From positions 1 to 25,664 of IMG/VR virus record IMGVR_UViG_3300020442_003349: a stretch of 25,664 bases of DNA; one strand, given 5' to 3'. The notes beneath the pieces were generated by a model that saw only the letters and a program-made list of their open reading frames with translations, did not search any database and was not told the DNA's origin. Positions 14,334 through 24,792 of the stretch are shown one piece after another (position 1 is the first letter of the stretch; each line of letters opens with the position of its first letter). The DNA is from a virus. A program made the position numbers and the translations under genes.

Positions 14334-14362
14334 ATTATAGCAGGCATTCTATTTAGTGTCAA
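14334..14362 (-). promoter_or_regulatory. Consensus sigma70 promoter for gp32
   Basis: TTGACA (14357-14362) and TATAAT (14334-14339) on the minus strand are separated by exactly 17 bases. The -35 box overlaps the stop codon of the DUF1825 gene. The predicted leader of about 39 bases is nearly free of T and is CA-rich, hence likely unstructured, and contains the gp32 Shine-Dalgarno (14296-14300). Confidence 0.9.
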
Positions 14363-15685: not shown

Positions 15686-15714
15686 ATTATAACATTAGGT
15701 ATACTAAAGGTCAA
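15686..15714 (-). promoter_or_regulatory. Sigma70 promoter for gp33-gp59-DUF1825
   Basis: TTGACC (15709-15714) and TATAAT (15686-15691) on the minus strand are 17 bases apart. The -35 box overlaps the stop of the upstream nuclease gene. Confidence 0.88.
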
Positions 15715-19180: not shown

Positions 19181-20404
19181 TCAATTATAACCCACCGCAT
19201 TCATTTTTGCAACCTCATATTCAATCTGACTTTTCAAAAGTCCTTTGGGTGGTTGCTTAACTCCAAGATAAACGTTTTTGAATGGATACTTCTCCATGGA
19301 TTTTGTTGCCTCATAGTAAAATAACTTTGCTGCTCCAAGAGACTGACAAGCATCACCTGCAATAGGATCAATAAAGAAATTAATGTCAGGAAATTGTTCT
19401 TGGATGACTGAGTTTGCACAAATGTTTAATGCACAACCTCCAGAAAATACAATGTTCTTCGTATCTGGTCTCAGTTCAAGAACTTGCTGAACTCTCATCT
19501 TCAAAACATGTTCCATACAATTTTGTATTTCCCATGCAAGATCTGCTTTCTTTTGAAAGTCGTCATGATGCCTAAGTTGAGGGAAGTTTGTTGTGTTGAA
19601 TAATCTATTACTATAGAACACATTCATATTTGCCATTCCATTATCAAGAATGAATGATGGTAAGTCATCATTATGATCACCATATGCAGCAAGACCCATG
19701 GTCTTTCCACATTCATCTCTAATAAATCCAAGGTGATATGTAACAGTTCCATACATCACACCAATGTCATAACAAGAATTGACATCGATAATATCATTAT
19801 CTGTCAACATCTCAAAGAAATTATTTGGGAAATTGACTTCAATAAATCCTCTTGGTGATGGTGCAGGAACGATCAGATTTTTATAGAGCAATCCAAAGTC
19901 ATTTGGATACTTTGCATAATATATTGAGGTGCTCTCCAAGAACATGATGTCACTCCACTTCTGAGCATTCTCCTTATCTTCATCGGAGAGTTCAATCTCT
20001 GCCAATTCCATAAGAGCATCAACTCTATAGTCAGCACCCCAACCATCAATCACAATGACAGCAGCTTCATCAAAACCTGATGCATAAAAACCAGAGGCAG
20101 CATGATAAAGATGATGCTCATCAACTTCAATGGTTGTTGTGATGCTATCTAATTTAAATTTCTTTAAGATCTCTTCAATATCACCAATATCTTTATCATC
20201 ACCATTAGTGATTACAAACTCATCGATACCATATTGTTCATGAAATTTTAGAACACGATCAAAAACACAAAGAAGTGAATTATCATGCTTCTTGCCAGAA
20301 AGTCTTTCTTCCAATACCATTTCATGAACTTCACCATTACGGATCATGGTGACACCTGCTTCATGTCCACTAATTGAGAAGCATACTACATTATAGTTTT
20401 TCAT
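19181..20404 (-). CDS. Carbamoyltransferase N-terminal (ATPase/Kae1-like) half, copy 2
   Basis: A 407-residue protein equal to the N-terminal domain of NodU/CmcH/TobZ carbamoyltransferases. It has VVCFSISGHEAGVTMIRNGE (the ASKHA-fold start), HHLYHAASGFYASGFDEAA with metal-type histidines 97, 98 and 101, then VIVIDGWGADY. CGKTMGLAAYG, NIVFSGGCALN and IDPIAGDACQSLGAAK come later. In full-length enzymes this half uses ATP to activate carbamoyl phosphate. The usual C-terminal half is absent downstream: after KNVYLG there are 26 more residues and a stop. It overlaps the preceding C-half gene by ATGA. Its partner must be one of the two separate C-half proteins if it is active. Confidence 0.88.
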   Translation of the reverse strand: MKNYNVVCFSISGHEAGVTMIRNGEVHEMVLEERLSGKKHDNSLLCVFDRVLKFHEQYGIDEFVITNGDDKDIGDIEEILKKFKLDSITTTIEVDEHHLYHAASGFYASGFDEAAVIVIDGWGADYRVDALMELAEIELSDEDKENAQKWSDIMFLESTSIYYAKYPNDFGLLYKNLIVPAPSPRGFIEVNFPNNFFEMLTDNDIIDVNSCYDIGVMYGTVTYHLGFIRDECGKTMGLAAYGDHNDDLPSFILDNGMANMNVFYSNRLFNTTNFPQLRHHDDFQKKADLAWEIQNCMEHVLKMRVQQVLELRPDTKNIVFSGGCALNICANSVIQEQFPDINFFIDPIAGDACQSLGAAKLFYYEATKSMEKYPFKNVYLGVKQPPKGLLKSQIEYEVAKMNAVGYN

Positions 20405-20958
20405 TTGACTACCAACATATCAACATCGGGGAAGTAAACATAATATAGATCTGATTTTTTCAGAGATGTCATTGCTTGCTTTGCAGTTTCAACTATCGGA
20501 TCACCAGCAAGATTGAATGATGTGTTTAGTAAGATTGGAACCTTTGTATTGATATAGAAAGTTTTAATTAGATTATAGTAGTGAAAATTTTCTTCTTTGT
20601 TGACTGTTTGTATTCTACAAGTTCCATCGACATGAGTGATAGCAGGAATATATTCCTGCATAGTTTCTTTCACTCTAAGATTGAATGTCATATAAGGAGA
20701 ACTCTTTAGACCAATCATATCAAACCATCTGTCAGCATGTTCTTCCAGGACAGAACCAGCAAATGGTCTAAAACTTTCTCTCTTTTTTACAGTATTGACT
20801 ATATCCTTTCCGTTAGGAATTCTTGGATCAAACAAAATGGACCTATTGCCCAATGCCCTAGGTCCAACTTCTGATCTACCTTGATGTATTGCTCCTATCT
20901 TTTTATCTAAAATCAGTTCAACGACATCATCATAAGTAACATCATATCTAATCTTCAT
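20401..20958 (-). CDS. Carbamoyltransferase C-terminal (YrdC-like) half, copy 2
   Basis: A 185-residue protein equal to the C-terminal domain of the same family. It contains IGAIHQGRSEVGPRALGNRS with GPRALG at 32-37, then ILFDPR, FRPFAGSVLEEHADRWFD, GTCRIQTVN, YYNLIKTFY and VPILLNTSFNLAGDPIVET. This domain carries the carbamoyl-phosphate and acceptor site. The motif is fully canonical. It follows the copy-1 N-half with an ATGA overlap, so these two genes together equal a normal N-to-C enzyme cut in the interdomain linker. Confidence 0.88.
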   Translation of the reverse strand: MKIRYDVTYDDVVELILDKKIGAIHQGRSEVGPRALGNRSILFDPRIPNGKDIVNTVKKRESFRPFAGSVLEEHADRWFDMIGLKSSPYMTFNLRVKETMQEYIPAITHVDGTCRIQTVNKEENFHYYNLIKTFYINTKVPILLNTSFNLAGDPIVETAKQAMTSLKKSDLYYVYFPDVDMLVVK

Positions 20959-22181
20959 ACGCTAGGTCCAAAATAAACATGCTTAAATGGGAATTTCTCT
21001 TTGCTCTTTGTCATTCCATACCATAGATATTTTGCTGCACCAATTGCAGTTCCAGCATCATGAGGAATAGGATCAACAAAAAATTCTACTTCTGGAAATG
21101 CCTTTGTGTATTTATAGTTGTTGACACAATTTAAGAAATATCCACCAGACAATACAATCTTATTCTTACCAGTCATATCAATCGTCTTTTGAATTAAACG
21201 ACAGGTATGATTGTAGGTTTCTTCCTGTAGTTTATGTGCAAGAGATGCACAGAGATAAGTATCCAGATCTGGCAATTCAAATTCACATTTAATATCATTA
21301 TCTTCTAGGAAGTTTTCCATTGCTGATTGGATGTTTTCAATTGTCATCCAAACACCTTCCTTCTCATAGAACCAGTCGCACACAAAGATGAACTTATCCT
21401 TTTCATAGTTTCTCAGAATATGATAGTTCTGCTTATATGAATCAGATGCAAGTCTGTGTCCAGATAGACCCATTAATTTACCTGCTTCATTTGAACCACC
21501 AAGTTCAAAGACAGCACACATTATATTAAATAAGTCTCCACAACTCCTTGTTCGGGAGTAAATTTCATTCTTACTTCTCTTCCAAAATATTTTTCTTTCA
21601 TCATCAGGATCTTCATCATCCTCATCTAACATGGAACAATGCTTAAATTTTGTGGTGAAAAGATTATCATAAGAACAATCAAAGATACTTTCAATTTCTC
21701 TGAAAGGATATTTACTATGTTTATATGTTTCTTCCTTTCTATATTCTACATCATATGCACCACCACCATCCAGAACTAGTGCTGCTGCATCATCAAATCC
21801 AGATGCAAAGAATGCATTTGCTGCATGGTAGATGTGATGATTGTCAGCAAAAATCATAGAGGTATTGAAAGAAATACCTTCTTTCTCAAGTGCTCTAAGA
21901 ATATTTCTCCTGATGAGGTCATCTTCTTCTGCTTTGTCTCTACCATAAGAAGTAAAAACAATATAGTCAATCCATGTTGTATATTTTTTAATCGTATCAG
22001 TATGATGATAGATGTCAGTATATCCACCATTCTCATCATAAAGATCGAACAGTTCGTTAAAATCACCCTCTGGCATTTTGACACCAGTCAGTCTATCATC
22101 TTCAGAAAAATATACAATCTCACCATCTTTCAAGAGACAAGCAGATGGTTCATGAGATATATTAACTCCTAGAATATACAT
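20955..22181 (-). CDS. Carbamoyltransferase N-terminal (ATPase/Kae1-like) half, copy 1
   Basis: A 408-residue protein. It starts MYILGVNISHEPSACLLKDG and has HHIYHAANAFFASGFDDAA (histidines 115, 116 and 119) followed by LVLDGGGAYD. NEAGKLMGLSGH, KIVLSGGYFLNCVNN and VDPIPHDAGTAIGAAK complete the fold. It stops at FKHVYFGPSV, exactly where fused enzymes pass into the linker, and overlaps the copy-2 C-half by four bases. It directly abuts the upstream C-half stop. Copy 1 and copy 2 N-halves share the motifs and overall length but have clearly diverged, so the duplication is not recent. Confidence 0.88.
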   Translation of the reverse strand: MYILGVNISHEPSACLLKDGEIVYFSEDDRLTGVKMPEGDFNELFDLYDENGGYTDIYHHTDTIKKYTTWIDYIVFTSYGRDKAEEDDLIRRNILRALEKEGISFNTSMIFADNHHIYHAANAFFASGFDDAAALVLDGGGAYDVEYRKEETYKHSKYPFREIESIFDCSYDNLFTTKFKHCSMLDEDDEDPDDERKIFWKRSKNEIYSRTRSCGDLFNIMCAVFELGGSNEAGKLMGLSGHRLASDSYKQNYHILRNYEKDKFIFVCDWFYEKEGVWMTIENIQSAMENFLEDNDIKCEFELPDLDTYLCASLAHKLQEETYNHTCRLIQKTIDMTGKNKIVLSGGYFLNCVNNYKYTKAFPEVEFFVDPIPHDAGTAIGAAKYLWYGMTKSKEKFPFKHVYFGPSV

Positions 22182-22754
22182 TTATGATACCTCGTTCTTT
22201 GCGTAAATTAGGGTTGCTTTTTCTGGAAGATAAAGATATTCAAATAATGATCTTTCTAGTGTTGATAATGCCTGCTTCAGAGTGTGAACAATTGGTTCAC
22301 CTCCAAGATTAAAAGATGTGTTGCCAACAATAGGAACTCCAGTCAAATCCTTATATGCCTTAATCAAATTATAGTAATGTGGATTATCTTCTTCACGCAC
22401 AGTTTGAATTCTGCATGTTTTATTCTTATGGATAATTGCTGGAATTTTCTTTGCCTGATCTGGTCTTACGTCAATTGCATATGTCATGAATGGAGATTCT
22501 TCTATAGTTCCGTTGTCAAACCATTCAGAAAAATCTTCCACCAAAATAGATCCAGCAACAGGTCTATACCATTCTCTCTTCTTGAGGATGTTGACGTGCC
22601 CCCACATCTCGTAAATACGTGGGTTGAATAGGAATGATCTATTTCCTAGAGCACGTGGTCCTCCTTCATCACAACCTTGATAAATGGCAACAATGTGACC
22701 ATCATCAATAAGTTTAGCAACGGTAGAATAATCAACCTTTGGTATTACTTTCAT
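22182..22754 (-). CDS. Carbamoyltransferase C-terminal (YrdC-like) half, copy 1
   Basis: A 190-residue protein that is transcribed first in the array. It contains IVAIYQGCDEGGPRALGNRS, FLFNPRIYEMW, YRPVAGSILVEDFSEWFD, KTCRIQTVREEDNPHYYNLI and VPIVGNTSFNLGGEPIVHT. The GPRALG motif is present (32-37), but the position usually Arg in 'QGR.E.GPRALG' is Cys (C28). No N-half precedes it; ThyX lies upstream. It probably pairs with one of the two N-half proteins encoded after it. A late-type promoter motif lies 21 bases before the ATG. Confidence 0.88.
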   Translation of the reverse strand: MKVIPKVDYSTVAKLIDDGHIVAIYQGCDEGGPRALGNRSFLFNPRIYEMWGHVNILKKREWYRPVAGSILVEDFSEWFDNGTIEESPFMTYAIDVRPDQAKKIPAIIHKNKTCRIQTVREEDNPHYYNLIKAYKDLTGVPIVGNTSFNLGGEPIVHTLKQALSTLERSLFEYLYLPEKATLIYAKNEVS

Positions 22755-22774: not shown

Positions 22775-23422
22775 TTATTTATTATGCTCCGTCCATCCAA
22801 GTGCTTCAGCAATCACTGGGAACTGACCAGCAAAGATACACTTGCATTCATTAGCAATATCCATGTGCTCCTTCTGTGTGCCATTAGCAGATCTCAGATC
22901 GATATAATGGATCCATGAGCGCACTGAGCCCGACATGTAAATTTTTGTTGGTGTTGCTAATGGAAGCACAAAGCGGGCACATTCCTTTGCAATTCCCATC
23001 TCAAGCATGTGCTTATAGATGTCCATACCACTCTCAAAGTGTCTCCTGATAGTAATCTCAAGTTCTTGCTTCAAGAAAGGATCAACATCATCAATAGAGT
23101 TCTGTCTGTTCTTTGTGTCTTGAGAACGTAGGTCAAACATAGGAATCTCATCGGAAAGCAGAGATGAATCTGCATACCGTTGTGAAAATTCTTGATATGT
23201 GAACGAACGGTGGCGCAAAATTTGAGCTGCCAGACCTCTGGTAGTATTGATTTCCAGAGTCATGAATGCCATCTCAAAGATACTCCAGTGCTTGTGATTG
23301 ATACAATACTTGAGTAGTCCAGCAATCTTTTCATTCTCTTGATTTGCAGGATTGCTTACACGGGCACAATATGCAATATTCTTCTCCGCATCAGGTGTAA
23401 CAGAGATCAGTTTAACATTCAT
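22775..23422 (-). CDS. thyX: Flavin-dependent thymidylate synthase ThyX
   Basis: A 215-residue protein. The ThyX signature is RHRSFTYQEFSQRY (residues 70-83), with Thr where Ser is more common inside the motif. The C-terminal SVRSWIHYIDLRSANGTQKEH provides the substrate and flavin contacts. It makes dTMP from dUMP with methylene-tetrahydrofolate and FAD/NADPH, supplying thymine for phage DNA. The length is normal. The start overlaps the preceding 59-residue gene by 11 bases. It is the last gene of the unit started by the promoter at 23804-23832, unless readthrough enters the carbamoyltransferases. Confidence 0.95.
   Translation of the reverse strand: MNVKLISVTPDAEKNIAYCARVSNPANQENEKIAGLLKYCINHKHWSIFEMAFMTLEINTTRGLAAQILRHRSFTYQEFSQRYADSSLLSDEIPMFDLRSQDTKNRQNSIDDVDPFLKQELEITIRRHFESGMDIYKHMLEMGIAKECARFVLPLATPTKIYMSGSVRSWIHYIDLRSANGTQKEHMDIANECKCIFAGQFPVIAEALGWTEHNK
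22776..22783 (-). promoter_or_regulatory. Late-type promoter motif before carbamoyltransferase array
   Basis: The minus strand reads AATAAATA, one mismatch from TATAAATA. It overlaps the ThyX stop codon and ends 21 bases before the ATG of the first carbamoyltransferase gene. The AT-rich context makes chance occurrence possible. Confidence 0.4.
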
Positions 23423-23591: not shown

Positions 23592-23782
23592 CAGTCTGGA
23601 TATCCATCATCATCGTTGAAGATCTCATCATAGTCTGAGATTGGTGCATAGTAAGATGCAGGATCATCAAAGTTCTCCTGCTTCGTTTGGTATGCATTGA
23701 CATCTGAGTAAACTTCAGACTTGAGAGATTCGACAAGTAACTCTAGGTTCCTTACTATCAATTTCAATTTGTCCTTTTCCAT
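23591..23782 (-). CDS. Small acidic hypothetical protein, 63 residues
   Basis: First gene behind the promoter at 23804-23832, with a leader of about 15 bases. The N-terminal half is a helix (MEKDKLKLIVRNLELLVESL), and the C-terminal half is acidic and Tyr-rich (YYAPISDYDEIFNDDDGYPD). No family recognised. The pattern of helix plus acidic tail suits a small protein that binds another protein, but that is inference. Confidence 0.75.
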   Translation of the reverse strand: MEKDKLKLIVRNLELLVESLKSEVYSDVNAYQTKQENFDDPASYYAPISDYDEIFNDDDGYPD

Positions 23783-23803: not shown

Positions 23804-23832
23804 ATTATACTCATAAAAAAAGGACCTGTCAA
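23804..23832 (-). promoter_or_regulatory. Consensus sigma70 promoter overlapping a terminator
   Basis: TTGACA (23827-23832) and TATAAT (23804-23809) on the minus strand are 17 bases apart. The -35 box lies in the loop and downstream stem of the terminator at 23815-23841, and the terminator's T-run forms part of the spacer. It starts the unit 63-residue gene > 59-residue gene > thyX. Confidence 0.9.
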
Positions 23833-23841
23833 GCAGGTCCT
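23815..23841 (-). terminator. Rho-independent terminator
   Basis: On the minus strand AGGACCTG (23834-23841) pairs with CAGGTCCT (23821-23828) around the loop CTTGA and is followed by a run of T (to 23815). The stem begins at the last base of the upstream stop codon, so it ends the small-gene unit that begins near 24769. Confidence 0.92.
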
Positions 23842-24763: not shown

Positions 24764-24792
24764 ATTATAGACCGAACAGACTATATAGTCAA
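24764..24792 (-). promoter_or_regulatory. Sigma70 promoter with palindromic -35 region
   Basis: TTGACT (24787-24792) and TATAAT (24764-24769) on the minus strand are 17 bases apart. GACTATATAGTC (24780-24791) is a perfect 12-base palindrome covering most of the -35 box and could be an operator. Confidence 0.88.

Follow-up and report, generated by a model that had tools for sequence, protein, structure and literature searches.

Can some 40 bases of viral DNA both end one transcription unit and begin the next? The question is raised by a boundary between small genes in a record of 25,664 bases from a marine cyanobacterial virus; we call this record the window. Its best matches are members of the Kyanoviridae (T4-like cyanophages), namely S-SCSM1, S-SM2 and S-CAM1. 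A previous sequence-only reading had remarked that a promoter -35 box is embedded there in a terminator hairpin. Our answer, drawn throughout from the comparison of sequences, is that the 40-bp element is very probably a fused terminator-promoter, predicted to act as a stop for the upstream small-gene unit and as a sigma70-type start for the following one.

Anatomy of the element

The element (AAAAAGTGAGGACCTGCTTGACAGGTCCTTTTTTTATGAGTATAATTAGTACAGTAGATTTCGTGCTATGG, minus strand, 5' to 3') and the genes that surround it are described in Table 1. The coordinates confirm the arrangement that had been noticed, with the -35 box shared by loop and stem of the hairpin and the T-run lying within the promoter spacer. 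The interval first proposed (23804-23841) needs two small amendments: the element lies on the minus strand, and it extends to 23843, two bases beyond.

Table 1. Signals and genes at the unit boundary (window coordinates)
Feature	Position	Strand	Remarks
Upstream gene, 52 aa	23841..23999	minus	ORF; phrog_6192 (unknown function), E=3.4e-28
Upstream stop codon TGA	23843-23841	minus	two bases shared with the foot of the hairpin
Intrinsic terminator hairpin (predicted)	23842-23820	minus	GAGGACCTG-CTTGA-CAGGTCCTT; 9-bp stem, loop CTTGA; from sequence and folding
-35 box TTGACA	23832-23827	minus	loop holds TTGA, 3' arm holds CA
T7 run of the terminator	23821-23815	minus	inside the promoter spacer; from sequence
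-10 box TATAAT	23809-23804	minus	17-base spacer from the -35 box
Predicted transcription start	23797	minus	from standard sigma70 spacing, seventh base past the -10 box
Downstream unit gene 1, 63 aa	23591..23782	minus	ORF; phrog_878 (unknown function)
Downstream unit gene 2, 59 aa	23412..23591	minus	ORF; phrog_765
Downstream unit gene 3, thymidylate synthase ThyX	22775..23422	minus	phrog_85, E=2.9e-87

The promoter scores 12/12 against the sigma70 consensus, the top match in the scanned half of the window, and the ATG of the 63-aa gene, at 23782, leaves a 15-nt leader after the predicted start. Folding of the RNA hairpin yields -15.5 kcal/mol (z = -4.3). An Rfam search of the element region returned sub-threshold matches only and no known RNA family. 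A terminator working in both directions was considered and set aside: the stem is present on the plus strand, but the tail is weak there (CACTTTTTGT), and the listed surrounding genes run on the minus strand. Elsewhere in the window (19181-22754, minus), two consecutive ORF pairs match split halves of a carbamoyltransferase; the same ORF order is found in S-SCSM1, whose four ORFs all carry the annotation carbamoyl transferase.

In the mechanism that we propose, the RNA made by a polymerase coming from the upstream small-gene unit would fold into the hairpin, and transcription would end in the T-run. The same DNA would be read by the host sigma70-type RNA polymerase as a consensus promoter of the early type, presumably used early, with a -35 box made of the hairpin loop and the beginning of its 3' arm, and a spacer that holds the T-run. 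This promoter would start the next unit, made of the 63-aa gene, the 59-aa gene, thyX and beyond. Because the new start lies downstream of the hairpin, the terminator would never be carried by the new transcript. Cyanobacteria lack Rho, which makes an intrinsic terminator plausible for insulating units, while in Synechococcus elongatus only 22% of transcript 3' ends have the look of a canonical intrinsic terminator (PMC13289151). A point against this mechanism is that a ribosome terminating at the upstream stop codon, which shares bases with the stem, could get in the way of hairpin folding.

Rarity by chance and spread

Compact genomes have short intergenic spacers that push signals together, and this alone might create such an overlap. 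The fused composite, present once in the window, was not reproduced by any of 300 dinucleotide-shuffled versions (0/300). Five cyanophage genomes, with 102 coding-strand terminators, were then scored for promoters starting 8-20 bases before the hairpin end: the -35 box falls within a terminator hairpin for 12 promoters that score 10/12 or better, where simple consensus rules lead one to expect 0.52, and the offsets cluster at -12 to -15. Each of the five genomes has between 1 and 4 fused composites on its coding strand, while shuffled genomes yield 0 or 1. With this tight phasing, and with the co-conservation described below, chance overlap is refuted on sequence statistics, and the probability that we leave to it is negligible.

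It counts against our reading that well-studied cyanophages are poor in the fused form: S-PM2 has two such elements (0.73 expected), and syn9 has none in the same scan. In KVP40, neither fused nor tandem elements are clearly in excess under the promoter model used. In a test blind to pairing, where sites were picked solely by their -35 box, T-run and -10 box, a matching fused hairpin was found at 26 of 113 sites in viral contigs, compared with 0.3-0.4 after shuffling of the 30 bases upstream. Most of these 26 contigs share DNA with cyanophage genomes. The same test gave 8 fused hairpins for 116 sites in bacterial contigs. The fused design thus also exists outside phages, with enrichment in viral contigs.

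Two further observations belong here. A fused-like element (AAGGGGCTTGACAGTCCCTTG, T-run, TATAAT) is present at L138 position 2003 and in Mammaliicoccus phage PMS3 (record 131019), one of the Herelleviridae, which is probably a case of convergence. Bacterial (clostridial) contigs, L306, L330 and L363 among them, carry strong promoters in which the -35 box TTGACA pairs as 3' arm with TGTCAA in an inverted repeat and is followed by a T-run.

A sigma70-like promoter class in cyanophages

Is the promoter half of the element a member of a genuine class? In five related cyanophages the pattern TTGACA-N17-TATAAT, with at most one mismatch, is distributed between the coding and the other strand as 25:1, 22:1, 34:2, 16:2 and 22:2, and controls with the pattern reversed give 0-3 per strand in the five genomes. 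This strong coding-strand bias, together with the scarcity of control matches, argues that the sigma70-like class is real in cyanophages. The window holds three more strong promoters of this kind, without a fused hairpin (14334-14362, 15686-15714 and 24764-24792, minus); all three recur in S-SCSM1, at least one of them identical and the others nearly so. Another promoter, TTGCCAagaggcaacgc(t/a)ctgtgaTATA(A/C)T, is present in nearly identical form in S-SCSM1 (139577), S-CAM1 (189565), S-PM2 (138858) and syn9 (168293); its -35 box is part of an inverted repeat, and its -10 box is 0-2 bases from a hairpin.

Conservation with changing stems

The sequence-only reading had suggested a search for the same fusion in related genomes. 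We took viral loci encoding the downstream 63-aa protein, keeping the best 80 of 273, some of them near-identical. A hairpin with its T-run stands immediately 5' of the 63-aa gene in all 80 of these best loci, and in 59 of the 80 the -35 box lies inside the hairpin, so that the fusion proves widespread in cyanophages. The element of S-SCSM1, with its -35 box at record position 146713, is almost the same as that of the window. In the 59 fused loci a spacer of 16-18 bases, 17 in nearly every case, separates the -35 and -10 boxes. Since related loci are only partly independent of one another, we count distinct hairpins: the 59 loci carry 32 hairpin sequences, every stem being fully paired (for example GAGGACCTG/CAGGTCCTT, GAGAGGTTG/CAACCTCTC, AAGGCGGGT/ACCCGCCTT and AGGGGGGGTT/AACCCCCCTT). 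When arms are swapped between loci, pairing falls to 68%. The detector favours well-paired stems, so the weight is borne by this swap control and by the variety of the stems, not by the perfect pairing as such. Most fused hairpins keep TTGA or TTGAC in or beside the loop. Stems thus change in a compensatory way while the promoter letters stay, which suggests selection on the pairing as well as on the promoter letters. The earlier view that one unit stops and the next starts on the same DNA gains from this joint presence of promoter and hairpin at 59 loci with 32 hairpins. A design kept in many related viruses despite altered hairpin letters is, on the evidence of these comparisons, a real, recurrent control element of cyanophages.

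One might argue that the element is a promoter and nothing else, the inverted repeat around the -35 box being the operator palindrome of a regulator, with no terminator at all. The repeat is indeed centred near the -35 box, a typical position for an operator, and TGTCAA/TTGACA inverted repeats do occur at strong promoters in some bacterial contigs. However, a protein-binding site would keep its letters, whereas the stem letters of the 32 hairpins change fully under perfect pairing. The T-run, moreover, directly follows the repeat in every locus, the upstream stop codon is close, and the 21 loci that are not fused keep hairpin and T-run at the same boundary under a different promoter layout. 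An operator without a terminator is in our opinion highly improbable.

Upstream neighbours and possible gene exchange

While the downstream gene is constant in the best 80 of 273 loci, the upstream gene belongs to at least seven unrelated families at this one site. An identical core of about 41 bases is found behind different upstream genes, and the same stem, with small changes, precedes nrdC in P-SSM4. Contact between the upstream stop codon and the hairpin, part of the first description, holds here, and the two-base overlap recurs in nine loci that have a gene of the 52-aa family upstream; where the upstream gene is another, stop codon and hairpin are mostly 3-34 bases apart, which rules out contact as an essential feature of general value.

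Such variable neighbours fit gene gain and loss at the element, as far as gene order can tell. If the element marks the boundary of upstream gene exchange, an incoming or outgoing gene would always meet a stop and a fresh start. Could it then be first of all a recombination cassette, a short shared homology kept for gene shuffling, for which the roles in transcription would be secondary? The seven or more upstream families and the 41-base core shared by loci with different upstream genes speak for it, as do 16 aligned columns, in the closest set of loci, where both bases occur with both types of upstream gene. In that same set, 23 fixed downstream differences split by upstream gene type, and this limits free exchange at the element. 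The stems also differ widely, which lowers homology, and selection for homology would preserve letters, not pairing. Free recombination exactly at the element is weakened by the 23 fixed differences; taken with the 16 all-combination columns, they leave exchange there neither free nor proven. A role in recombination may accompany the fused terminator-promoter, but we think it unlikely to be the primary one.

A second layout and the possible fate of the polymerase

In the remaining 21 of the best 80 of 273 loci, S-SM2 included, the promoter is placed just 5' of the hairpin, and the hairpin touches the start codon. In this layout B (layout A being the fused form), 0-2 bases separate the stem from the -10 box, which sits where the upstream gene has its stop codon; in L376, L379 (S-SM2), L384, L421, L428 and their relatives the T-run leads into the start codon (TTTTTTATG). 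Since the predicted start falls in the hairpin loop, the 5' arm would be missing from the new RNA. Over the genomes of seven cyanophages such phasing occurs 10 times against 0.37 expected, six cases being exactly abutting. In the S-SM2 record, the annotated start of SSM2_272 (187258) lies inside the predicted promoter, 5' of the hairpin; among the two starts, the ATG at 187291 is the conserved one.

These loci matter for the opposite reduction, in which only the terminator would be real, TTGAC being a favoured loop, TATAAT an AT-rich accident, and the downstream genes being transcribed from elsewhere. A hairpin in 80 of the best 80 of 273 loci, with the promoter inside it in just 59, is what this would predict, and the -10 box is weaker in many loci (TAAAAT, TAAACT). 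Yet the hairpins that lack TTGAC, with loops GTAA, GTTA, GCAA, GTAT or CAC, each have a separate promoter just before them. The nearly invariant 17-base spacing and the strong strand bias of the promoter class likewise tell against an accident, and we hold this reduction to be very improbable.

For the fused terminator-promoter, the sequence-only reading had raised interference between the two units, and it is possible: a polymerase standing in the T-run would sit on top of the promoter. It is just as possible, by analogy, that the terminated polymerase is reused at the overlapping promoter. After intrinsic termination, RNA polymerase usually stays on the DNA, diffuses, and can restart at nearby promoters; this was seen in vitro with the bacterial enzyme, with supporting RNA-seq evidence (PMC6978380, PMC6978322). 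The cyanophage layout, which is known from sequence, would put the nearby promoter directly beneath the terminated polymerase, whereas recycling was demonstrated for bacterial RNA polymerase in vitro.

Tentatively, and with more doubt than confidence, a general rule for cyanophages might be proposed, that of terminators from which the new transcript is exempt. The -35 box would be the hairpin loop in layout A; in layout B the -10 box would abut the hairpin and the start would lie in its loop. Either way, a transcript begun at the new promoter would be free of the 5' arm and escape, while read-through from upstream would stop. Layout A may in addition hand over the polymerase: having just terminated, it would sit over a consensus promoter and, still bound to the DNA, could move on to the next unit.

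Relation to known systems

Arbiol in 2010 and Comeau in 2014 reportedly described PeSL (promoter-early stem-loop) cassettes in the T4-like phages RB49, phi1, PST and nt-1. A PeSL combines an early sigma70-like promoter and an intrinsic terminator in a small intergenic cassette, present in several copies between variable small genes, and PeSLs are thought to act as gene-shuffling points. In Escherichia coli, the frd terminator, which is also the ampC attenuator, overlaps the ampC promoter region; in that case the upstream operon contains the promoter, and the hairpin, placed after the start, is an attenuator. The PeSLs of T4-like phages are described as composite promoter-terminator motifs, and PeSL-type shuffling was judged unlikely for the ORFan region of S-PM2 (PMC4503421).

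The cyanophage element resembles PeSLs in its sigma70-like promoter (12/12 consensus, of a class biased to the coding strand), in the predicted stem-loop terminator of the same cassette, kept in 80/80 relatives (best 80 of 273), and in its several fused copies per genome (1-4) between variable small genes; the window virus itself, with its Kyanoviridae relatives, belongs with the T4-like phages. It differs in phasing. In our scan of RB49 the hairpin is followed at a distance of 13-32 bases by the start of the -35 box (11 cases where 1.0 were expected), and no promoter is in the fused phase. RB49 is thus tandem (+13 to +32), while cyanophages are fused (-12 to -15) with the T-run in the spacer; tandem order is an anatomical trait measured in RB49, not one known to belong to the published definition of PeSLs. 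Copies per genome are also fewer in cyanophages. By its sequence, the cyanophage form is a compact, tighter-phased variant of the PeSL cassette, set apart by the RB49 scan. With frd/ampC it shares a promoter region and a terminator used by two adjacent units on compact DNA; it differs in that the hairpin holds the -35 box and the start lies beyond the hairpin.

Significance for cyanophage biology

Two opposite signals appear to be held together by selection within about 40 bases, across a large and abundant group of viruses. For the annotation of cyanophage genomes, this provides a search rule for unit boundaries: TTGAC in a hairpin loop, a T-run, and a 17-base spacer to TATAAT. The element may also supply compact stop-start parts for cyanobacterial genetics. 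Finally, it would make a natural test bed for a question asked since the single-molecule work of 2020, whether polymerase fresh from termination goes back to work at a promoter that overlaps the terminator.
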